DNA of 41,292 bases. It comes from a virus. The notes beneath the pieces were generated by a model. The model was not told the DNA's origin. It did no database searches and saw only the letters and a program-made list of their open reading frames with translations. The stretch's first letter is position 1; every line of letters starts with the position of its first letter. Both the position numbers and the translations under genes were made by a program. The stretch lies in the IMG/VR virus record IMGVR_UViG_3300025117_000134, positions 1-41,292 of that record; one strand, 5' to 3'. This document shows, piece after piece, positions 2,865-41,292 of this stretch.

Positions 2865-4072
2865 TCAGAAAAACTGTTAAAAACAGAAGACTAAGAATTC
2901 TTTGGAGTTCAAATAGTCACTGGTCTCAATAGCAAAGCGGCTATGGAGTATTTACCCGTGATTTACTTTTTAGACTTAGAGATGATGGGTGGCCTATTGC
3001 TGAAGTAGGGTTCTTTGGTTTACAAGGAAACCCTGTAACAGTTGATGGTATTAAAGTATATCCTTGCATGGGTGATCCATATGGTTCTGATGCTTTACTT
3101 CATGCTGCCATAGATTTTAAAGCAGATGTGGTGTTTACCATGCAAGATGTATTTACTCTTAACCCTCAGTACCTAGATGCATTAGCAAAACAAAAGATAC
3201 CTTGGATTCCATATATGCCCATAGATCAAGACCCTGCACCAGAGGTTATTATTGAAAGAATAAAGTTTGCTCATAAAATAATTACTTTCGCTGAATATGG
3301 ACAAAATGTATTGGAAAATCAAGGATTTGCATCTACCTTAATTAAAGAAGGAACGGATACAGACATATTTAAACCAGGAGATAAATTTAAAGCTAGAGAA
3401 GAACTTAAAATTCCACAAGATGCTTTTACATTTGCAATGATTGCAGCTAATAAAGAAAACCCACCACGCAAAGGGTTTCAAGAAGTATTAGAAGCATTTA
3501 AAATGTTCCATGATAAACATCCTAAATCTAATATATTATTTCATACACAACAAATAAGCCCTGCTGGTTTTCCTATTGCTGACTACGCTAGATATTTGGG
3601 TATACAAAAAGATATATTTTTCATGGAACAATATAAATCTACTTATTTATCAGATTCTTATCAGATAGCTAAGGAAATGAATGCTTGTGATGTATATTTA
3701 CAACCTTCACAAACCGAAGGATTTGGTTTAACTGCAATTGAAGCTATGAGTTGCGGTAAACCAGTAATTGTTAATAATTGTACATCAATGCCAGAAATGG
3801 TTAAAGCTGGTAAAACGGGTGAGATTTGCGATACAGCAGAGTACAAATGGTGGAGGTCACAGAACGGATTTGTCTATCCTGCTAACCCCAAATCAATGTA
3901 TGAGAAAATGGAAATACTTTATAACAAGTTAAATGATCCTAAAAATAGCCTCGAAAAAGACTGTAGAGACCATATTTTGACAAATTTTGATATTAATACT
4001 ATATTTAAAGAAAGGTGGGTTCCTTTTTTGGAAGAACTGCAAACAGAACTTCTAAATAAACCCACTAAATGA
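2861..4072 (+). CDS. Glycosyltransferase, GT4-like GT-B fold, with in-frame TAG
   Basis: A glycosyltransferase of about 403 codons in GT4 style. The C-terminal Rossmann domain has the E-x7-E signature in EGFGLTAIEAMSCG (genomic about 3717-3760) and an N-terminal domain typical of retaining GT-B enzymes. The start at 2861 follows a strong AAGGGGGTGG sequence and gives a natural N-terminus (RLRILWSSNSHW). Codon 24 is TAG (2930-2932), followed by SGYGVFTRD in the same frame, so homology continues through the stop. The only internal start, ATG 3068, has no Shine-Dalgarno and would lose the first 69 residues. It is either read through, a mutated gene, or an assembly error. It probably uses the phage-made nucleotide sugar (inference). 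Confidence 0.7.
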
Positions 4073-19033: not shown

Positions 19034-19091
19034 GTTTAAAACAAATAAAGATAAAGCAGAATGGCTTAAGAAGCTATATGAAAAATTATGA
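18963..19091 (+). CDS. Overlapping 42-residue basic protein
   Basis: Out of frame with the preceding gene but linked to dcm by an ATGA overlap (stop 19089-19091). The product is MIIYIPRFLKELPP then a Lys/Trp-rich helix (YWKGKFKTNKDKAEWLKKL). The second half lies outside any other gene and looks protein-like. It could be a separate gene or the frameshifted C-terminus of 18827-19033. Confidence 0.45.
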   Translation: MIIYIPRFLKELPPKKHKEYWKGKFKTNKDKAEWLKKLYEKL

Positions 19092-20074
19092 AATATATAG
19101 ATTTATTTGCAGGAATAGGAGGATTTAGATATGGACTTGAAAAATGTAATGGTGTTGAATCAACAAACAAGAAGTCCAAATCGACCAAGCCTGAAGTACA
19201 GTTCCGGGGGGAGCGGTCCGCTTTGGAAGAAAAACGAAGCATTTTGTATTCCAACAAGCGGTGGTTCAGGGCAGTATATAGTAATGAATGGGACAAATAC
19301 GCCAGTTCAATCTACAAAAAACATTATGGAGAATGCGACACAAGGGACATCAGAACAGTTAAGTCTAGTGAAATCCCAGACTTTGACTTACTTGTTGGAG
19401 GATTTCCTTGCCAAGCATTTTCAATCGCTGGAAAACGCAAAGGATTTGACGACACCAGAGGGACTTTATTTTTTGAAATCGCTAGGATTCTTGCCGACAA
19501 AAGACCCAGATATTTTATACTTGAAAACGTCAAAGGTTTACTTAGTCATGACGAAGGCAAAACTTTCCAGACAATACTTGGGGTTCTCACCGACTTGGGG
19601 TATGAGTATCAATGGCAGGTTCTTAACAGCAAAAACTTCGGAGTCCCCCAGAACAGGGAAAGAATCTTCATTATCGGACATCTTAGAGGAGAACCCAGAC
19701 CCAAAGTATTTCCTATCAGAGAAAATAACAGCGTTTCTATTAAACGACAGGGGCAAATTTCCCCCACAATTACGCAGCGATACTACAAACAAGGACAGTC
19801 AGACCCTTATATCGTTACTGAAAAATCAAAGACAGGGGAACAGAGTTTACAGCAAGAAAGGAATCAGTCCAACAATACCGACATCAGTGGGGGGGAGACA
19901 CATTCCACAAGTATTAGAAGATTGACACCAACTGAATGTGAGAGATTACAAGGATTTCCTGATGGTTGGACAGAATACGGAACGGAAGGGAAAATATCAG
20001 ATACCCAACGCTACAAAACACTTGGAAATGCAGTTACCACTAATGTAGTATATGAAATAGCAAAACGATTATGA
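19088..20074 (+). CDS. dcm: DNA (cytosine-5) methyltransferase
   Basis: 328 residues with the ordered C5-methylase motifs: I DLFAGIGGF (5-13), IV GGFPCQAFS with catalytic Cys108, VI ENVK (146-149), VIII QNRER (188-192) and X GNAVT (313-317). It transfers methyl from S-adenosylmethionine to cytosine, probably protecting phage DNA from host restriction; no partner nuclease is seen. About 40 extra residues (about 20-62) separate motifs I and II. The gene is less AT-rich than its neighbours and fully contains another open frame (19131-19925), which may explain both features. Confidence 0.95.
   Translation: MKYIDLFAGIGGFRYGLEKCNGVESTNKKSKSTKPEVQFRGERSALEEKRSILYSNKRWFRAVYSNEWDKYASSIYKKHYGECDTRDIRTVKSSEIPDFDLLVGGFPCQAFSIAGKRKGFDDTRGTLFFEIARILADKRPRYFILENVKGLLSHDEGKTFQTILGVLTDLGYEYQWQVLNSKNFGVPQNRERIFIIGHLRGEPRPKVFPIRENNSVSIKRQGQISPTITQRYYKQGQSDPYIVTEKSKTGEQSLQQERNQSNNTDISGGETHSTSIRRLTPTECERLQGFPDGWTEYGTEGKISDTQRYKTLGNAVTTNVVYEIAKRL
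19117..19122 (+). promoter_or_regulatory. Internal Shine-Dalgarno for the overlapping frame
   Basis: AGGAGG, 8 nt before ATG 19131, inside the dcm codons for motif I (GIGGF). It gives the nested frame an ideal ribosome-binding site, although the codons for GIGG favour such a string anyway. Confidence 0.6.
19131..19925 (+). CDS. Overprinted gene inside dcm (+1 frame), 264 residues
   Basis: A 264-codon open frame, offset +1 from dcm and wholly nested in it, with AGGAGG 8 nt upstream. Its translation looks like a real protein. It has GGSGPLWKKNEAFC (about 26-39), WGMSINGRFLTAKTSESP (about 156-173), SLSDILE (180-186), PKYFLSEK (191-198) and RVYSKKGISPTIP (238-250). From memory, phage proteins with a SLSDILE…KYFLSEK signature occur next to or over C5-methylases, but I cannot search. 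Function unknown. Alternatively it is a chance frame imposed by dcm composition; its length and motif content argue against that. Confidence 0.6.
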   Translation: MDLKNVMVLNQQTRSPNRPSLKYSSGGSGPLWKKNEAFCIPTSGGSGQYIVMNGTNTPVQSTKNIMENATQGTSEQLSLVKSQTLTYLLEDFLAKHFQSLENAKDLTTPEGLYFLKSLGFLPTKDPDILYLKTSKVYLVMTKAKLSRQYLGFSPTWGMSINGRFLTAKTSESPRTGKESSLSDILEENPDPKYFLSEKITAFLLNDRGKFPPQLRSDTTNKDSQTLISLLKNQRQGNRVYSKKGISPTIPTSVGGRHIPQVLED

Positions 20075-26676: not shown

Positions 26677-27123
26677 ATGTCTGCCAAACATATTGCCCAA
26701 CAGATAATTAAATGCTTCAATAGAGGTGGTAAACTATTAATTTTTGGAAATGGCGGATCAGCTTCTATGTCTCAACATTGGGCTGCGGAATTTATAAATA
26801 AGTTTGAACACGAAAGAGATCCACTTCCTGCAATAGCACTAACAACAGACACTTCGATATTAACTTCAATTAGCAACGACTATTCTTCTGATGAGATATT
26901 TACTAAACAAGTATGGGCATTAGCAAAACCAGAAGATATTGTTATTGGTATATCTACGAGTGGTAAATCAGTAAATGTAATATACGGATTAGAAGCAGCA
27001 AAACATCATGGAATAGAAACAATAGACTTACCAAGAAAAGGAAAAACTACTGCCAAAGTACAAGAATATCAACTTAAATTAATGCATGATATAACTAGAA
27101 TAGTAGAAAAGGAATTTATATGA
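26677..27123 (+). CDS. gmhA: Sedoheptulose-7-phosphate isomerase (SIS domain)
   Basis: 148 residues, a compact SIS-fold isomerase of the GmhA type. GNGGSAS (24-30), SQHWAAEF (32-39) and STSGKS (93-98) form the phosphosugar site, and the last helix (VQEYQLKLMHDITRIVE) carries the family's usual His. It converts sedoheptulose 7-phosphate to D-glycero-D-manno-heptose 7-phosphate. It lacks roughly 40 N-terminal residues found in bacterial GmhA. First gene of an operon with a kinase, nucleotidyltransferase and transketolase of the same pathway. Confidence 0.85.
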   Translation: MSAKHIAQQIIKCFNRGGKLLIFGNGGSASMSQHWAAEFINKFEHERDPLPAIALTTDTSILTSISNDYSSDEIFTKQVWALAKPEDIVIGISTSGKSVNVIYGLEAAKHHGIETIDLPRKGKTTAKVQEYQLKLMHDITRIVEKEFI

Positions 27124-27434
27124 AGTATGCTTTAGATTTTGATGGTGTGATACTCTCTCACCCAGAGTTACCTAGTAGTTCTAATTGGTTCAACAATAAA
27201 CCAGTTAAAAATTCATTAGAAGCAATAAATTATTTACTATCCTTAGGTCATGATCTTTATATATGTACAAATAGAACTCCAGAAGAATGGGACAAAATTC
27301 AATCTTGGCTTGATAGGTATAATTTTCCACACATAACTATAACCAATATAAAACAAAAAGGTACGACTATATACATAGACGATAGAAGTTTGCGTTTTAC
27401 AAATTGGCAGGATATACGCAAATATTTTGGTTAA
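27120..27434 (+). CDS. Small HAD-superfamily phosphatase (GmhB slot)
   Basis: 104 residues. Motif I DFDGV (Asp6, Asp8), motif II Thr50 in ICTNRT, Lys78/80 and the acidic IYIDDR (Asp87/88) form a minimal capless HAD phosphatase. In the nucleotide-heptose pathway a phosphatase must remove the 7-phosphate from the bisphosphate between HddA and HddC. The position of this gene fits that role, although its sequence is much shorter than bacterial GmhB. ATGA overlap with gmhA. Confidence 0.7.
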   Translation: MKYALDFDGVILSHPELPSSSNWFNNKPVKNSLEAINYLLSLGHDLYICTNRTPEEWDKIQSWLDRYNFPHITITNIKQKGTTIYIDDRSLRFTNWQDIRKYFG

Positions 27435-27473
27435 ACATAAATATGGCTCATATACATATATGAAAAAAGTCAA

Positions 27474-28400
27474 ATGAAAATAATATCACAAGCACCATGC
27501 AGAATAAGTTTATTCGGAGGTGGTACTGATATTAATCCTTACGCTTCAAAATATGGTGGTGTTGTTTTTAGTATAGCTATAAATATAAGACAACATATAA
27601 TACTTGATACAGAGTCTTTTAAACATGATTGGCTAGAAGGTGATAGTTTAGATTTTATTAATAAATTTCTCAATCCTTTTAAGGTTGGAAATTGTGGAAT
27701 AAAACACACTTTTGATGGCCCTATTGAATCTGGCTTGGGTTCGTCTGCATCATTAGCTGTTGCTTTGATAGGTGCTGTAAATAAAGCAAAAGGAATAATA
27801 ATGAATAAAGATCAAATAGCAGAAATGGCCTGGAACATAGAAGTAAACGAACTTGGATTATTTGGTGGTAAACAAGATCAATACGCAGCCATTCACGGTG
27901 GTATCAATGTAATGGAATTTACTGATAAAGTTAAAGTTACACAACTATCGCCATCTTTTGTTGATCCCCTACTTCCATATCTAACCTTATTTTATACTGG
28001 AAAGAACCGTAGATCAGGTAAAATACAAGAAGCATTTAAAGAACTATCTAAACCACAACTAAACGCATTAGACGGTATAAAACAACTAACATATGATGGT
28101 GTAAATGCTATTGCTAATAAAGATGTGTATTCTGTGGGTAAACTATTAGACTATGCTTGGCAATTAAAGAAGAAATCTAATGCTGGTACTACAAATGAAA
28201 AGATAGACGCAATATATCAAACTGCATTGAAAAACGGTGCAATAGGTGGAAAGATACTCGGAGCAGGAGGTGGAGGACACATTCTGTTTGTTTGTCCACC
28301 AGATAAACAAGATCAACTAAAAGAAGCATTATCTAAATATGATTGTACTTGGACAGATTTTGGGATAGATTTTAATGGCTTAGAAACGAGGATATTATGA
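27474..28400 (+). CDS. hddA: D-glycero-D-manno-heptose 7-phosphate kinase (GHMP family)
   Basis: 308 residues. GHMP kinase motifs: SLFGGGTDI (12-20), the ATP loop ESGLGSSAS (85-93) and LGAGGGG (262-268). The GGGTD opening with FGGKQDQYA (130-138) is typical of HddA, which phosphorylates heptose 7-phosphate at C1 (α-anomer, GDP branch). Full length. A short GTCAAATG leader without SD precedes it, and a 30-residue peptide gene overlaps its end. Confidence 0.88.
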   Translation: MKIISQAPCRISLFGGGTDINPYASKYGGVVFSIAINIRQHIILDTESFKHDWLEGDSLDFINKFLNPFKVGNCGIKHTFDGPIESGLGSSASLAVALIGAVNKAKGIIMNKDQIAEMAWNIEVNELGLFGGKQDQYAAIHGGINVMEFTDKVKVTQLSPSFVDPLLPYLTLFYTGKNRRSGKIQEAFKELSKPQLNALDGIKQLTYDGVNAIANKDVYSVGKLLDYAWQLKKKSNAGTTNEKIDAIYQTALKNGAIGGKILGAGGGGHILFVCPPDKQDQLKEALSKYDCTWTDFGIDFNGLETRIL

Positions 28401-28489
28401 ATACATTTTATTATATAAATATATTACCGTGGACTATAATGGGATTTCTTTCGTTATTTTTACTAATTAGAAAGACACTTAAGAAGTGA
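28397..28489 (+). CDS. 30-residue membrane peptide between hddA and hddC
   Basis: MNTFYYINILPWTIM then FLSLFLLI and RKTLKK: one TM helix with a basic tail. It has an ATGA overlap with hddA and a GTGA overlap with hddC, so it may chiefly couple translation of the two enzymes or anchor them to the membrane. Confidence 0.5.
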   Translation: MNTFYYINILPWTIMGFLSLFLLIRKTLKK

Positions 28490-29019
28490 AAGCAATAATA
28501 CTTTGTGCTGGGTATGGTACTAGACTTAGACCACTTACATACTTTAAACCTAAGTGCTTAATAGATATATGTGGTAAGAGTGTACTTGAAAGAATTATGA
28601 ACTATCTACATTTCTACGGTATATTTGAAATAGCAGTTAATACACATTATAAACCACTACAAATAATGAAAAAGTTTGGAAATAATTTTATATACACATA
28701 TGAAAAAGAATTACTTGGAGAACAGGGTACAATTGATTCATTGTCAGGTTGGATAGGTGATGAACAGTGTGTTGTTGTAAATGGGGATACTTTAACAAAT
28801 GTAGATCTGTATTCAATGATAAGTCTAAGTAAAGGAAAGAACCTTAGATATATGGATAACAACATATATGCAGGAATTAGATTGGTTAATCCTTTTGAAC
28901 AAGATATACCATCTCTCAGGTATGGACAGAAGTCTGCTTTCTGGGTAGATGTAGGAACATTCAAGGGTTTAAAAAAGGCTAGAGAAATATATGCGAAAAA
29001 AACTGGTAATTTGTCCTAA
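28486..29019 (+). CDS. hddC: Sugar-1-phosphate nucleotidyltransferase (HddC-like)
   Basis: 177 residues with a GTG start in the GTGA overlap. AIILCAGYGTRLRPLT (3-18) with Lys22 and VVNGDTL (97-103) are the nucleotide-binding and catalytic motifs of GT-A-like NTases. It would make GDP-D-glycero-α-D-manno-heptose from heptose 1-phosphate. It is about 50 residues shorter than bacterial HddC; the part after NGD is abbreviated but retains the terminal FWVDVGTFKGLKKA motif. Donor nucleotide (GTP versus another) cannot be read from sequence. Confidence 0.8.
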   Translation: MKAIILCAGYGTRLRPLTYFKPKCLIDICGKSVLERIMNYLHFYGIFEIAVNTHYKPLQIMKKFGNNFIYTYEKELLGEQGTIDSLSGWIGDEQCVVVNGDTLTNVDLYSMISLSKGKNLRYMDNNIYAGIRLVNPFEQDIPSLRYGQKSAFWVDVGTFKGLKKAREIYAKKTGNLS

Positions 29020-29362
29020 TTGTCAATTACAGTCTAAAAAAACTGTAAGCAAATGGAAAGGTAATGGATTTAACATAGAGATTGTTAGACCTAAACCTTT
29101 CGTGATTGGAGAAATAGACGATGATAGAAATTTTAAGATTAAAAGAGGTGGAGAAAACTATACAATAATATCTGGTTCTCAATTTGAAGTTCTTTGCGGG
29201 AATTGTGGTGAAAAAGTTTATATTAAAGAAATACCACCTGTAAATTTGACGAAACCCTATTTTTCTAGTAATATGGTTTTATATGCATACACCAAAGGCA
29301 CAACTTCTCAAGAACAAAGAATATTATTGGGCACACAGGGAACAAGTTTTGGCACGAATTAA
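28991..29362 (+). CDS. Protein with zinc-binding CxxC pairs
   Basis: 123 residues. CPNC near 8-11 and CGNCGEK near 70-76 suggest a split zinc ribbon around a small β-domain. It overlaps the hddC end by 29 bases and the HNH gene by 80. The C-terminal 27 residues lie in the overlap and look less protein-like, so the original gene may have been altered by the HNH insertion. Confidence 0.5.
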   Translation: MRKKLVICPNCQLQSKKTVSKWKGNGFNIEIVRPKPFVIGEIDDDRNFKIKRGGENYTIISGSQFEVLCGNCGEKVYIKEIPPVNLTKPYFSSNMVLYAYTKGTTSQEQRILLGTQGTSFGTN

Positions 29363-29678
29363 GAAATATAGGGAAGCAAATCCTGAAATAATTAAAGAAA
29401 GAAAAAAGAAATATTGTCAAAAAAATAAAGATAAGGTTAACGCTTGGAATAAAAAGTATATTAGAAAAAGAAAAAAAGATATTTTAATTAAATTGGGAGG
29501 TAAATGTAAGAACTGTGGATTTGATAGAGTTGCAGCTTTACAGATTCATCATAAAATAGGAAAAGGAAAACCAAATGGTAAAAGATATGGAGGTGATTAT
29601 ATGCGATTGAAAAATTATCCATTAGAAGGGTTAGAAATCTTGTGTGCAAATTGCCACGCAATATTACACTATGAGTAA
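29283..29678 (+). CDS. HNH endonuclease inserted in the heptose operon
   Basis: 131 residues. An N-terminal basic helical repeat (YREANPEIIKERKKKY…) typical of phage HNH proteins precedes the core: CKNCG, LQIHHKIGKG, and LEILCANCHAILHYE. Catalytic His-His and the last His are intact. It overlaps both neighbours and probably entered as a selfish element. Confidence 0.82.
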   Translation: MHTPKAQLLKNKEYYWAHREQVLARIKKYREANPEIIKERKKKYCQKNKDKVNAWNKKYIRKRKKDILIKLGGKCKNCGFDRVAALQIHHKIGKGKPNGKRYGGDYMRLKNYPLEGLEILCANCHAILHYE

Positions 29679-30507
29679 ATGTTTAATTACAGGAGTCAGC
29701 GGATTCTTGGGTACCAACTTGCGACAACATCTATTACGGTTGGGACATTCAGTAGACATATGGGATCGCAAACATCTTGAAAGCGATAATAGGATAGAAG
29801 GTCATTATGATTGTATATTTCATTTGGCAGCATACGGTCAACACTTGGGTCAAAGAAACGGAATAGATGAGATTTATAATACTAATGTTACTAAACTTCT
29901 TAAATTACTAAAGGCATCAAACCATATCAAATATAAAGCATTTATAAATATAGGTACTTCAAGTGAGTACGGGGTTAAAAATAAACCAATGAAAGAAACT
30001 GATCTTTTGGAACCAGATTTTCTTTATGCATCAAGTAAGGCAGCTGGAACTTTATTGTGTCAGGCTTGGAGTAAAATAAACAACAAACCTATTGTAACAG
30101 TAAGACCATTCTCTTTATATGGTGGGTTTGAAGAAAAATTTAGATTTATTCCAAAATTAATGACATCTGCTATAAGTGGGACAAATATGGAAATATCAGA
30201 CGGATCACATGATTGGATATTTGTTACAGATTTTATAGAAGCAATGATGATAGTTGTTAAAAATATCAAAAAATTAAAAGGTAAGATAGTAAACATAGGT
30301 ACAGGTAAACAACATACTAATTGGGAAGTAGCTGAAATTGTTGAAAGTATGGGCAATATGATAAGTTTCAAAAAGTGTAAGAAACGACACAACGACATGA
30401 AAAGTTGGGTTGCTGATACCAAACTTATCAGATCATTAGGTTGGAAACCAAAATTTACATTAAAAAAAGGTTTAGAAGAAACAATGCAATATTATCTACC
30501 ATATTAA
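29671..30507 (+). CDS. NAD(P)-dependent nucleotide-sugar epimerase/dehydratase
   Basis: 278 residues from ATG 29671; upstream in-frame codons belong to the HNH gene. Extended SDR: GVSGFLG (8-14) for NAD(P), IGTSSEYG (94-101) and catalytic YASSK (Tyr119, Lys123), followed by VRPFSLYG. In a heptose operon it most likely modifies the GDP-heptose (4,6-dehydration, epimerisation or reduction), but sequence does not fix the reaction. Confidence 0.82.
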   Translation: MSKCLITGVSGFLGTNLRQHLLRLGHSVDIWDRKHLESDNRIEGHYDCIFHLAAYGQHLGQRNGIDEIYNTNVTKLLKLLKASNHIKYKAFINIGTSSEYGVKNKPMKETDLLEPDFLYASSKAAGTLLCQAWSKINNKPIVTVRPFSLYGGFEEKFRFIPKLMTSAISGTNMEISDGSHDWIFVTDFIEAMMIVVKNIKKLKGKIVNIGTGKQHTNWEVAEIVESMGNMISFKKCKKRHNDMKSWVADTKLIRSLGWKPKFTLKKGLEETMQYYLPY

Positions 30508-30508
30508 C

Positions 30509-31198
30509 ATGGATTTAAAGAAACGCATTATTGATATTAGTTATAAAAAAGGTTTATCTCATTTGGGTAGTTGCCTTAGTGCTGTCAATATAATAGATGA
30601 AGTTTACGCAATTAAACAAGAAAAAGACACCTTTGTATTATCCGCTGGTCATGCTGCCCTGGCTTTGTATGTAGTTTTAGAAAAGTATTTAGGGCATGAT
30701 GCTGAAATACTTTTTGACCTTCACGGAGTACATCCTAATAGAGACATAGAACATGGAATAGAGTGTAGTACGGGCAGTCTAGGGCAGGGTTTACCTATTG
30801 CTCTCGGTATGGCAATGGCTAATAAGAATAAGAATGTATTTTGTTTGATAAGTGATGGTGAGTGTTCCGAAGGTTCTATATGGGAAGCTTTAAGAGTTGG
30901 GTGGGAATATAAAGTATCAAACTTAATAGTTTTAGTAAATGTAAACGGTTGGGGTGCATACAAAAGAATTAAAGGAGAAGACCTACATGCACAGTTAACG
31001 GGATTTATGGGTGATGTATTGGTAGAAACTGGTATGGGTAGAGGTAAACTACCTAAATTATTAAAACAACGCAGGAGATTCCCAACTGTGATATTTTGTA
31101 GAACATCAGTACAACAACATCCAGCATTAAAAGGAAATTTGGCACATTATAAAGTTTTAACTAAAGAGGAATACGAAGTAAAGGAGGTGTCCCATTAG
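30509..31198 (+). CDS. tktA-N: Transketolase, N-terminal (TPP-binding) subunit
   Basis: 229 residues. Thiamine diphosphate motif ISDGECSEG with DGE at 116-118 and Asn146, plus STGSLGQGL (87-95). With the next gene it forms a split transketolase that can make sedoheptulose 7-phosphate from pentose phosphates or fructose 6-phosphate, feeding GmhA. Stops at TAG 31196-31198, inside the start of the C subunit. Confidence 0.88.
   Translation: MDLKKRIIDISYKKGLSHLGSCLSAVNIIDEVYAIKQEKDTFVLSAGHAALALYVVLEKYLGHDAEILFDLHGVHPNRDIEHGIECSTGSLGQGLPIALGMAMANKNKNVFCLISDGECSEGSIWEALRVGWEYKVSNLIVLVNVNGWGAYKRIKGEDLHAQLTGFMGDVLVETGMGRGKLPKLLKQRRRFPTVIFCRTSVQQHPALKGNLAHYKVLTKEEYEVKEVSH
31182..31196 (+). promoter_or_regulatory. 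Strong SD before an ATT start codon
   Basis: AGGAGG (31182-31187) is 6 nt before ATT (31194-31196). No ATG, GTG or TTG lies in range in the right frame. The next ATG (31230) has no SD. This arrangement decides the start of the downstream subunit. Confidence 0.65.
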
Positions 31199-31673
31199 AA
31201 AACAATTTGCAGAGTCATTATACAAACACATGATTAAAAATGAGAATATCTGGTTAGTTACTGGAGACTTAGGCTTTGGTATGTTTGATAAAATAAAAAA
31301 GAATATAAAAGATAGATTTATTAATGTAGGTGCAGCAGAACAAACAATGATGGGAGTTGCTGTTGGTATGGCATTAGAAGGAAAGATACCATTTGTTTAC
31401 TCAATAACACCATTCTTACTTTACAGACCATTTGAAACTATCAGAAACTACATTAATCACGAAAACATACCAGTTAAAATGATAGGATCAGGAAGAAATA
31501 TTGATTACGCACACGATGGATTCTCTCACTGGGCTGAAGAGGACGAAGAAGTAATGAGAATATTTAAAAACATACAATCAGTATGGCCTACAACTAAAGA
31601 AGAAATACCTAACTTAGTTGAGGAGATGATAAAGACAAGTGTTCCTTACTATGTGAATCTGAGTAGGACTTGA
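31194..31673 (+). CDS. tktA-C: Transketolase, C-terminal (pyrimidine-binding) subunit, ATT start
   Basis: 159 residues from ATT 31194 (147 if ATG 31230 is used). The ATT start yields RKQFAESLYKHMIKN, the usual opening of transketolase C subunits, which the ATG start would remove. Catalytic Glu49 lies in GAAEQTM, and HDGFSHWAEED supplies the conserved His. The third, C-terminal domain of full transketolases is missing, so this is the minimal Pyr domain. The start overlaps the N-subunit stop by 5 bases. Confidence 0.85.
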   Translation: MRKQFAESLYKHMIKNENIWLVTGDLGFGMFDKIKKNIKDRFINVGAAEQTMMGVAVGMALEGKIPFVYSITPFLLYRPFETIRNYINHENIPVKMIGSGRNIDYAHDGFSHWAEEDEEVMRIFKNIQSVWPTTKEEIPNLVEEMIKTSVPYYVNLSRT

Positions 31674-31707: not shown

Positions 31708-32151
31708 ATGACAAATAATAAATTAACACTAAAACAAAGGAAATGGTTAAAACTATATCTTGAGTTGGGAAATGCGACAGAAGCAGCCTCAAAAGTATAT
31801 AATTGCAAAAATAGAGATAGTGCCAAACAAATAGGGTGGGAAAACCTTACAAAACTAGACTTTGCAGACTTTTTAGAGGAGGCTGGTATAACAGATAATT
31901 TACTTCAACAAAGAATAATGGAAGGACTTGATTCAACAAGGACTGTAAGCGCAGTTAATACTTCTAAGAATGCAAGAGCAGACAGTAATGATTTTATTGA
32001 TGTTCCAGACTTTATGGCGAGACATAAATATCTAGAAACGGCATTAAAACTTAAAAGAAAAATGGTTGAAAGGACAGAAATAACTGGACCTAATGGTTCA
32101 GAATTAAATATTCGAATTATAGAAGAAGATAAAAAGAAATTTGCAGAATAA
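31708..32151 (+). CDS. terS: Terminase small subunit
   Basis: 147 residues. LTLKQRKWLKLYLELGNATE followed by AASKVYNCK and IGWENLTKLD is the N-terminal helix-turn-helix of Terminase_2-type small subunits. The C-terminal part holds oligomerisation helices. It recognises phage DNA for packaging. Lies 2 nt before the large subunit gene. Confidence 0.82.
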   Translation: MTNNKLTLKQRKWLKLYLELGNATEAASKVYNCKNRDSAKQIGWENLTKLDFADFLEEAGITDNLLQQRIMEGLDSTRTVSAVNTSKNARADSNDFIDVPDFMARHKYLETALKLKRKMVERTEITGPNGSELNIRIIEEDKKKFAE

Positions 32152-39743: not shown

Positions 39744-39776
39744 TGAGCAGGTAGGTTACTAGAACTTGCCTGCTCA
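39744..39776 (+). promoter_or_regulatory. Leader hairpin before fkbM1
   Basis: TGAGCAGG/CCTGCTCA, perfect 8-bp stem beginning next to the expected transcription start. It ends 7 nt before ATG 39784, where an SD would normally be. It likely protects the mRNA 5' end or controls initiation. Confidence 0.6.
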
Positions 39777-39783
39777 TTCTAGT

Positions 39784-40425
39784 ATGAACGGTATATTTTA
39801 TAACGGTAAGATAGAAGATAACTATATAGGCCATATAATGGCAGAAGTTTACAAGGATCGGGTTTACGATCCTTTTTTAATGGGCAAAAAAGACCTAACT
39901 ATTTTAGATATAGGTGCAAATATAGGAATAACCGCTAACTACTTCTCACAATTCGGCAGAGTATTTTCACTAGAACCATCTAAACAGCATTTTGAATGTT
40001 TAAGCCATATGGTGGAATATAACAAACTAGATCAAGTTACACCAATCAATAAAGCCTTATATATAAAAGATGGTAAATTACCATTCTTCCACAATACAAA
40101 CAACACAATGTTTTCCCTTCATCAATCTGTTAATGACAACTCATCTCCACCAGAAGAAGTTGAATGCATAGCAATAGATACTTTATTAAAAGAATACAAG
40201 ATAGAACATGTAGACTTTATGAAATTAGACATTGAAGGTAGTGAAGTTGAAGTTATATCTAGTAAAGGTTTTAAAGAAGTTGCTAATAAAATAGACATGA
40301 TGGTTATAGAAGTACACGCTTGGAATGGTAGGAATTCTAACCAACTATTAGATACTCTAAAAATGCGTGGATTTTATGTTGAAACATTACCAGCAGATGC
40401 AAATATTATAGTAGCCAGAAAATGA
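39784..40425 (+). CDS. FkbM-type SAM-dependent methyltransferase 1
   Basis: 213 residues from ATG 39784; an in-frame TTG at 39766 lies in the leader hairpin and is less likely. SAM motif ILDIGANIGIT, then FSLEPSKQ (acidic loop), VDFMKLDIEGSEVEVI and MVIEVHAWNG match the FkbM family, which O-methylates sugars or polyketides. Likely methylates the phage-made sugar (inference). Confidence 0.85.
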   Translation: MNGIFYNGKIEDNYIGHIMAEVYKDRVYDPFLMGKKDLTILDIGANIGITANYFSQFGRVFSLEPSKQHFECLSHMVEYNKLDQVTPINKALYIKDGKLPFFHNTNNTMFSLHQSVNDNSSPPEEVECIAIDTLLKEYKIEHVDFMKLDIEGSEVEVISSKGFKEVANKIDMMVIEVHAWNGRNSNQLLDTLKMRGFYVETLPADANIIVARK

Positions 40426-41015
40426 GCAAAATATTAGAAGTATACAAAGATTGTTTTGAAAACAATGGTAGATTTTTAGATGAGACCTTTGTAGAAGAAA
40501 TTTACTCCTCAATAATAGATAGGAAGGTAATAGTTGATATTGGTGCGTATGAGGGAGAATTTGGTTATTATTGTTATAACTTCGCAAGTGAAATATATGC
40601 AATAGAACCAGACCCAAGACCTTTTAATGTAATGAAGGAAAGAGCTAAAAAATTTGAATTAGATAGATTTAAATTATTTAATATTGGTATTTCAGGTAAA
40701 AGTGGAGACCGTAAACTTCACGCCTCTGGTTATGGTGGAAGTACTATACAGATTTCACAAGATACAAACATGATAACGATTAAAACATTATCGTTAGATG
40801 ATTTTATAAAAGAAAATAATATTAAACATATTGATATATTAAAAATTGATGCAGAAAGTTCGGAAGGTGAGATATTTGAAAACACTAAGTCTTTTGAAAT
40901 GATAGATAAAATAATAGGAGAAAATCACGGAGGAAACAAAGTAGAACAAATATTAACAGATAATGGTTTTAATTATAAGGATTTAGGTAAGGGAGTATTT
41001 TTAGCAACAAAATGA
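40422..41015 (+). CDS. FkbM-type SAM-dependent methyltransferase 2
   Basis: 197 residues, ATGA overlap with the first methyltransferase. VIVDIGAYEGEFG, IYAIEPDPRPF and IDILKIDAESSEGEI are the FkbM motifs. Divergent from its neighbour, so not a recent duplicate; the pair may methylate different positions. Overlaps groES by ATGA. Confidence 0.85.
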   Translation: MSKILEVYKDCFENNGRFLDETFVEEIYSSIIDRKVIVDIGAYEGEFGYYCYNFASEIYAIEPDPRPFNVMKERAKKFELDRFKLFNIGISGKSGDRKLHASGYGGSTIQISQDTNMITIKTLSLDDFIKENNIKHIDILKIDAESSEGEIFENTKSFEMIDKIIGENHGGNKVEQILTDNGFNYKDLGKGVFLATK

Positions 41016-41269
41016 TTATACCTTTAGAAAACTACATATTAGTCGACCCAATAAAAGAGGACACTGTTAGTGGTGGAATTTATGTTCCACAGAATGAAAC
41101 TGAAAGACCCATGCGTGGAAAAGTGTTAAAAATAGGCTCAAAAGCCCCTGTAATCGAAGGAGATGTTATCGTTTTTAAAAAGTGGGCAGATCAGTCGGTT
41201 AAATACGAAGGAAAAGAATATTTATTGGTAAAGATAGAGGATTTAATAGCAAAAATAGATGAGAATTAA
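41012..41269 (+). CDS. groES: GroES co-chaperonin
   Basis: 85 residues, the complete copy. The mobile loop (EDTVSGGIYVP, 16-26) that binds GroEL and the β-barrel segments MRGKVLKIGSKAP and GDVIVFKKWADQ are present. Slightly shorter than bacterial GroES (about 95). Translationally coupled to fkbM2 upstream and to groEL, whose start is 11 bases before this stop. Confidence 0.93.
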   Translation: MIIPLENYILVDPIKEDTVSGGIYVPQNETERPMRGKVLKIGSKAPVIEGDVIVFKKWADQSVKYEGKEYLLVKIEDLIAKIDEN

Positions 41270-41292
41270 AAAAGAAATAGTATTTGATAAAG
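41177..41292. repeat. Terminal direct repeat, copy 2 (with groEL 5' end)
   Basis: Identical to bases 1-116. Bases 41259-41292 are the first 34 bases of groEL (complete copy at 83-1657). Marks circular closure. Confidence 0.93.

Follow-up and report, generated by a model that had tools for sequence, protein, structure and literature searches.

Why would a phage carry a split transketolase (TK) among genes for an activated heptose? The question is raised by the IMG/VR virus record IMGVR_UViG_3300025117_000134, which we analysed over its whole 41,292 nucleotides (hereafter, the window). Its genes between positions 26677 and 31673 had been read, from the sequence alone, as a complete nucleotide-heptose pathway that draws sedoheptulose 7-phosphate from its own TK. 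We propose, with moderate confidence based on gene context and residues, that the operon comprises two modules: the heptose genes would make a nucleotide heptose, and a short-chain dehydrogenase/reductase (SDR) together with the TK would tailor a nucleotide sugar by C2-branching.

A conserved heptose operon with reduced enzymes

The named genes, all on the + strand, match the Pfam and NCBIfam families expected of them. The block makes up about 12% of the genome, as the sequence-only reading had stated. They are arranged in the following order, with terminase genes next downstream (aa, amino acids; ORF, open reading frame).

26677-31673, + strand: the operon block, about 5.0 of 41.3 kb
26677-27123, + strand: gmhA, GmhA-like sedoheptulose 7-phosphate isomerase with a SIS domain, 148 aa (TIGR00441, 1.1e-39; PF13580, 1.9e-22)
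27120-27434, + strand: mini HAD phosphatase, 104 aa, a candidate for the bisphosphate step (phrog_1238, 4.3e-15)
27474-28400, + strand: hddA, HddA-like GHMP kinase (D-glycero-D-manno-heptose 7-phosphate kinase; NF049969, 4.3e-47; PF00288/PF08544)
28397-28489, + strand: 30-aa ORF that by eye resembles one membrane span and overlaps the hddA stop and the start of the next gene
28486-29019, + strand: compact HddC-like sugar-1-phosphate nucleotidyltransferase (NTase), 177 aa, GTG start (PF00483, 3.2e-13)
28991-29362, + strand: zinc-ribbon ORF (CxxC...CxxC), adjoining NTase and SDR genes in relatives by a local hidden Markov model (HMM)
29283-29678, + strand: HNH endonuclease ORF, following the zinc ribbon and preceding the SDR gene (phrog_2255, 1.3e-15)
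29671-30507, + strand: extended SDR, 278 aa from the ATG at 29671 (PF01370, 9.8e-34)
30509-31198, + strand: TK-N, the domain binding thiamine diphosphate (ThDP), 229 aa (PF00456, 7.8e-14)
31194-31673, + strand: TK-C, the pyrimidine-binding part, 159 aa (PF02779, 1.9e-22)

A search of related viral contigs, the check that the sequence-only reading had suggested, found the heptose block with SDR and TK genes downstream in 10 others, in one of which (L120/L012) gmhA was not found. Because the block recurs in the same order in other contigs, it is not due to chance, and we conclude that the operon is real and conserved. This layout (type II below) runs gmhA, (HAD), hddA, NTase, (zinc ribbon), SDR, TK-N, TK-C, usually before the terminase; its members are the window, L036/L035, L115, L116, L119, L120/L012, L121, L122, L126, L200 and L202, the last of which ends inside TK-N. 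An earlier ORF list had missed three ORFs inside the operon (28397-28489, 28991-29362 and 29283-29678). The zinc-ribbon ORF has no Pfam match, and the HNH ORF matches PF01844 below the cut-off (0.0024). None of the seven scanned operon proteins reaches an NCBIfam curated cut-off, and the enzyme names are therefore family-level. A promoter upstream of gmhA, striking by eye, was dropped, as the region holds 23 promoter-like sites against 29.6 (standard deviation, 6.2) in shuffled sequences; no terminator-like site was found in the operon region.

The isomerase scores 136 bits against TIGR00441 (curated cut-off, 209). Compared with E. coli GmhA, it begins about 30 residues late, and a loop of about 17 residues near the C-terminus is missing; it retains the phosphate-binding STSxxS motif and the counterparts of E. 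coli E65, Q172 and H180, of which we take the Glu and His positions to be catalytic. The kinase is above the cut-offs of PF00288 and PF08544 and below that of NF049969 (161 bits versus 600), and its motifs GLGSSAS, GKQDQ and GGGG are intact and invariant in our hddA alignment (A4).

The NTase has 177 aa versus about 225 for HddC, and a gap of about 41 residues relative to 6jq8/5xhw spans the EK-type sugar-binding segment. A profile of nine phage homologues (A2) has these HddC structures as its top PDB match (4.9e-28), and the GxGTR, PK, NGDT and DxGT elements are retained in the nine-row alignment. The AlphaFold model (pLDDT, 93.4) resembles MurU (4y7t; Z 22.8, 1.7 A root mean square deviation, 173 aligned residues) and HddC (5xhw; Z 19.8, 2.2 A, 168 aligned). 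The same reduced form occurs in eight other viral contigs (159-202 aa, 25-47% identical to the window's), with invariant catalytic residues. Because nine diverged contigs share the form and keep these residues, and because the model is confident, the window NTase looks like a functional reduced enzyme and not a wreck. The earlier statement that all key motifs are intact goes too far: it holds for NGDT and DxGT of the NTase and for the HddA motifs, among others, but does not extend to the sugar-binding segment of the NTase, the short GmhA or the C-terminal domain of the TK.

The HAD protein shows DFDG and DD motifs, and its best NCBIfam match is EcbF-BcbF (3.7e-5; 23.7 bits versus a cut-off of 162). 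It is not recognisable as GmhB, in whose position it had been placed: no GmhB model is among the NCBIfam matches listed, and the alignment to E. coli GmhB is weak (8.7 bits). The gene is present in 4 of the 11 operons (the window, L116, L121 and L122) and missing from the other 7. A sequence comparison for PDB relatives of the HAD protein gave a spurious lectin match and nothing credible. What stands of the claim that every step is encoded is a conserved GmhA, HddA and HddC-like set starting from sedoheptulose 7-phosphate, while the GmhB step rests on the mini-HAD. Many viruses carry gmhA together with hddA: gmhA is present in 56 of the 80 best hddA loci, and a relative of hddA occurs in at least 537 viral contigs. 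Completeness alone is therefore less striking than had been thought. Phage gmhA and hddA genes are already known and common; the reduced NTase, the conserved operon of heptose, SDR and mini-TK genes, and the wide viral spread of the mini-TK are new.

The mini-transketolase and its neighbours

The TK is both split and short. TK-C starts at an ATT codon (31194) directly behind AAGGAGG, overlapping the TK-N stop, and not at the ATG (31230) chosen by the ORF caller; this ATT start is shared by the near-identical contig L001. The frame stops just past the counterpart of E. coli TktA Arg520, so that the C-terminal domain is absent. The window TK retains ThDP and catalytic residues matching TktA H26, H66, H100, D155, N185, D381, E411 and H473, and among the type II rows each such position is kept in 9 of 9, except N185 (8 of 9). 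H66 and H100 were matched by HMM alignment and R358, S385 and R520 by spacing; the H26, D155 and N185 positions in TK-N are those that we take to correspond by motif. In an alignment of 143 members, the catalytic Glu (Glu49 of TK-C, TktA E411) is present in all 143, and all short-form TKs keep it together with the ThDP Asp and three His positions. The short forms all keep the positions matching R358 and H473, have Arg or Lys at that of R520, and have replaced those of S385 and H461; nearly all of them carry Arg101, next to the H461 position.

Single-protein scans with hddA and TK-N were too narrow (0 and 1 relatives, respectively). A scan with TK-C gave 39 relatives, and with the TK-C alignment (A1) the number of viral contigs rose to at least 351; we retained the best 80. 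The 'phages' collection, in which many matches are unannotated contigs of uncertain phage origin, had no match at 60% identity or above for TK-N, hddA, TK-C or the SDR. The 119 viral loci reduced to 89 distinct contigs after removal of exact 400-base matches at the TK-C end. We found RfbH in 47 of these 89 contigs, hddA in 8 and both in none. In contrast, an SDR adjoins the mini-TK in 80 of the 82 contigs used for this count (the other 7 have no flank or lack a TK half).

Three layouts can be distinguished. Type I consists of RfbH, an SDR (in most cases with the TDE dehydratase motif), TK-N, TK-C and a second SDR; in L014, RfbH is above its cut-off (473 versus 423 bits), and in L018 the SDR beside the TK is RmlB-like (319 bits versus a cut-off of 365). 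Type II is the layout of the window. Type III consists of SDR, TK-N and TK-C in a locus without heptose genes, with FkbM genes in 10 of 24 loci and GT8 genes in 8 of 24. The heptose module also occurs alone: L206 carries gmhA, hddA, NTase and zinc ribbon with no TK, L199 a partial heptose operon without TK, and in the heptose operon of L195 (7525-11720) an RfbH-like enzyme (395 bits versus a cut-off of 423) and an SDR replace the SDR and TK. The two modules are therefore separable in both directions.

TktA D469 senses the alpha-hydroxyl of the acceptor. The matching position is Asp in 9 of 9 type II, 24 of 24 type III and 27 of 32 short-form rows of the Omnitrophota and Patescibacteria group, Leu in 56 of 56 type I rows, and mostly Leu or Asn in 22 long-form TKs. 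It is as if the acceptor differed between types; with Leu at this position, a 3-deoxy acceptor produced by RfbH would fit. In a tree of 143 of the 150 candidate TKs, the viral mini-TKs lie among and beside those of Omnitrophota and Patescibacteria, and nearly all RfbH-type sequences fall into one clade (support at its base, neighbours included, 0.989). Because support at some deep nodes is low (down to 0.11), we base no claim of direction on the tree.

The SDR has GTSSEYG and YxxxK motifs and lacks the TDE dehydratase triad, which does not fit an RmlB-type 4,6-dehydratase. UDP-glucuronate 4-epimerases proceed via a 4-keto sugar, and such an epimerase is the top PDB match of the SDR profile (6zl6, 2.4e-63), with MoeE5 next. 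Fold searches against viral models were uninformative on function.

In cellular genomes, the scan for the TK gave 60 loci, and an SDR adjoins the TK in 46 of them. The closest cellular TKs (mostly 55-66% identity) are largely from Omnitrophota and Patescibacteria (Microgenomates groups), with one from Elusimicrobia; weaker matches (about 30-40%) are long-form TKs of Pelagibacteraceae, Planctomycetes, Verrucomicrobia and others. Next to the short form there is usually an SDR with a GSSSEYG-type motif, along with a class I methyltransferase and a GT2 glycosyltransferase; in the genome loci of Omnitrophota, Patescibacteria and others, the methyltransferase cluster recurs in 23 of 42 and the GT2 in 28 of 42. 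Among the genomes of 26 of the 31 loci L051-L081 (all except L062, L071, L072, L077 and L081), HddA-model hits occur in 10 (strong, <1e-30, in 4), GmhA in 7 and both in 3; most are metagenome-assembled genomes (MAGs) of unstated completeness, and these absences are therefore soft.

Two other sets of loci came up in these searches. In L229, L232, L238, L241, L245, L259 and L271, viral hddA lies near a DegT/RfbH-type enzyme and an SDR, possibly in amino- or deoxy-heptose pathways. L082-L084, binned as Maricaulis and Thaumarchaeota, carry a TK cluster of the RfbH type and group with viral sequences in the tree; they are likely viral contigs in MAGs.

Tailoring, supply or separate pathways

In the two-module scheme, GmhA, HddA, the HAD protein or a host phosphatase, and the HddC-like NTase would act in turn to convert host sedoheptulose 7-phosphate to a nucleotide-activated D-glycero-D-manno-heptose. 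The SDR would then place a keto group on a nucleotide sugar, and the ThDP enzyme would add a two-carbon hydroxyacetyl unit to that group; the product would be a branched or chain-extended sugar. Most simply, the heptose from the same operon would serve as acceptor, and another nucleotide sugar would do so in relatives without gmhA and hddA. Two glycosyltransferases may attach the product and two FkbM methyltransferases may methylate it, on the virion or the host surface. We infer here the substrates, the nucleotide, the direction of the TK reaction, the acceptor and the final glycan. These glycosyltransferases and methyltransferases are encoded at the ends of the window:

1650-2396, + strand: GT8-like glycosyltransferase, candidate sugar user (PF01501, 2.5e-5; 24.4 bits versus a cut-off of 24.3)
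3068-4072, + strand: GT1/GT4-type glycosyltransferase, candidate sugar user (PF00534, 1.9e-21)
39766-40425, + strand: FkbM-type methyltransferase (PF05050, 2.2e-18)
40422-41015, + strand: second FkbM-type methyltransferase (PF05050, 5.9e-13)

We favour tailoring because the constant partner of the TK across contexts is the SDR and not the heptose genes, and because the modules separate both ways (L206, L195). More tentatively, we suggest that viruses, Patescibacteria and Omnitrophota use a dedicated minimal TK for branches on nucleotide sugars, and that in the window a nucleotide heptose gains two carbons to give a nine-carbon branched sugar. Such a sugar, if made, would be destined for glycans of the virion or the host. 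Should the mini-TK indeed branch nucleotide sugars, it would represent a type of enzyme proposed but never shown for such a reaction, present in hundreds of viral contigs, small enough for expression and assay, and a handle on the surface sugars of Patescibacteria and their phages.

Several known systems resemble parts of this scheme. The heptose genes parallel the GDP-D-glycero-alpha-D-manno-heptose pathway in their isomerase, GHMP kinase and HddC-like NTase (HddC ranks first among solved structures), and differ in the NTase, about 41 residues shorter, the short GmhA and the mini-HAD in place of GmhB. For the biosynthesis of miharamycin and amipurimycin, as described in PMC12247030, a split-gene TK with an oxidoreductase has been proposed, not shown, to transfer a hydroxyacetyl unit to a keto sugar; by that description, the window is alike in having an oxidoreductase adjoining a split TK in sugar biosynthesis. 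The 13 candidate sequences given there are all from Streptomycetes, whereas ours are from phages and from Patescibacteria and Omnitrophota, with a TK that lacks the C-terminal domain. The same source describes YerE, which in yersiniose branches a keto-deoxy sugar of the kind expected from the RfbH and dehydratase-type SDR of type I. The CDP-yersiniose branch is like the type I relatives in its adjoining 4,6-dehydratase-type SDR, RfbH, ThDP enzyme and further SDR; YerE, however, is a decarboxylase-type ThDP enzyme, the type I enzymes are transketolase-type, and the window operon has neither RfbH nor the dehydratase motif. In Caulobacter phage Cr30 and Synechococcus phages, hddA lies close to genes for SDRs and glycosyltransferases, and Cr30 and SynMITS9220M01 have gmhA as well, but these are large phages with about 30% identity and no mini-TK match in the loci fetched. 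A published paper describes nucleotide-sugar genes of Patescibacteria phages; its main text contains neither the word heptose nor transketolase (PMC12911398). In the literature searched, where absence is not absence from print, we found no paper on a phage TK of this kind, and searches for TK with RfbH and O-antigen, or for phage-encoded or split TKs, gave nothing relevant.

Several observations weigh against tailoring. The miharamycin precedent is itself unproven. The structural matches of the SDR model (pLDDT, 93.2) are tied among several activities, with 4-epimerases, reductases and dehydratases in the top 50 (Z 34.0-31.6), and no second SDR adjoins the window TK to reduce the new ketone. 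The Asp/Leu switch falls on one clade, and long TKs often have Leu as well (16 of 22); since type I occupies one part of the tree, the correlation may reflect a single event. Type II and III TKs keep Arg2, Asp108, His112 and Arg158 (one Lys), which fits an ordinary sugar-phosphate TK. Finally, the TK lies downstream of heptose genes in the same operon in 11 contigs, an arrangement that is also compatible with substrate supply.

Supply is the role that the sequence-only reading had given the TK: it would provide sedoheptulose 7-phosphate, for example where the host's pentose phosphate pathway is weak, and the SDR would perform one tailoring step on the nucleotide heptose. The likely hosts are indeed reduced Patescibacteria, and the TK retains positions matching TktA R358, D469, H473 and R520. 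We nevertheless consider this role less likely: most of the viruses and host genomes that have this TK with an SDR have no heptose genes with it, the Omnitrophota and Patescibacteria genomes that carry the pair mostly do not have both gmhA and hddA, heptose operons exist without the TK (L195, L206 and, in part, L199), and the S385 and H461 positions are not retained. It keeps a real minority share of our confidence because the type II TK is ordinary-looking and no second reductase adjoins it.

The transcript could instead carry two independent pathways, one for a nucleotide heptose and one in which SDR and TK make a separate C-branched sugar from a host nucleotide hexose, as might be expected from the SDR and TK pairs found without nearby heptose genes in relatives and in a Roizmanbacteria prophage. 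The fixed order of gmhA, hddA, NTase, SDR and TK in several TK lineages, which suggests a joint product, makes this quite improbable. That the heptose block is partly decayed and only some of it works, as the deletions in NTase and GmhA and the non-GmhB HAD might indicate, is hard to credit for an NTase form shared by nine diverged contigs with invariant catalytic residues and a confident model. The two-module scheme remains our preferred reading.

Host and other genes of the phage

The Roizmanbacteria prophage (L080, also L194; Candidatus Roizmanbacteria UBA1450) is part of a contig of 487 kb. Chromosomal genes, by eye UvrA, UvrB, SecG and others, flank it on the left; it then runs integrase (PF00589), zinc ribbon, SDR, TK-N, a TylF-like methyltransferase, TK-C, terminase and portal, followed to the contig end by phage genes matching the window's capsid, GT4, GT8 and FkbM. 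Identities to the window are 39% for the SDR, 47% for TK-N, 59% for TK-C, 42% for the portal, 45% for the capsid, 43.8% for GT8, 44.5% for GT4 and 43.3% for the FkbM protein of 39766-40425. Unlike the window, the prophage has no hddA or NTase match near its TK, has a different terminase, and carries the TylF-like gene (L080 9360-9977) between TK-N and TK-C. Because the window shares capsid, portal, glycosyltransferases, FkbM, SDR and TK with this prophage, its phage probably infects Patescibacteria or similar bacteria; as the contig is from a MAG and phage genes run to its right-hand end, this host assignment is an inference.

A 116-bp direct terminal repeat (1-116 = 41177-41292) indicates that the window probably represents the whole genome, some 41.2 kb long. 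On a circular map, the FkbM genes at the right end would then adjoin the GroEL-like, GT8 and GT4 genes at the left end. The GroEL/Cpn60-type chaperonin is phage-encoded at 83-1657 (PF00118, 3.1e-59), and a C5 cytosine DNA methyltransferase lies at 19088-20074 (PF00145, 3.6e-85). The large terminases (TerL) of the window and L001 are 99% identical, and the small-terminase genes (31708-32151; L001 1570-1959) differ except in their last 26 residues, a gene swap between near-identical phages.

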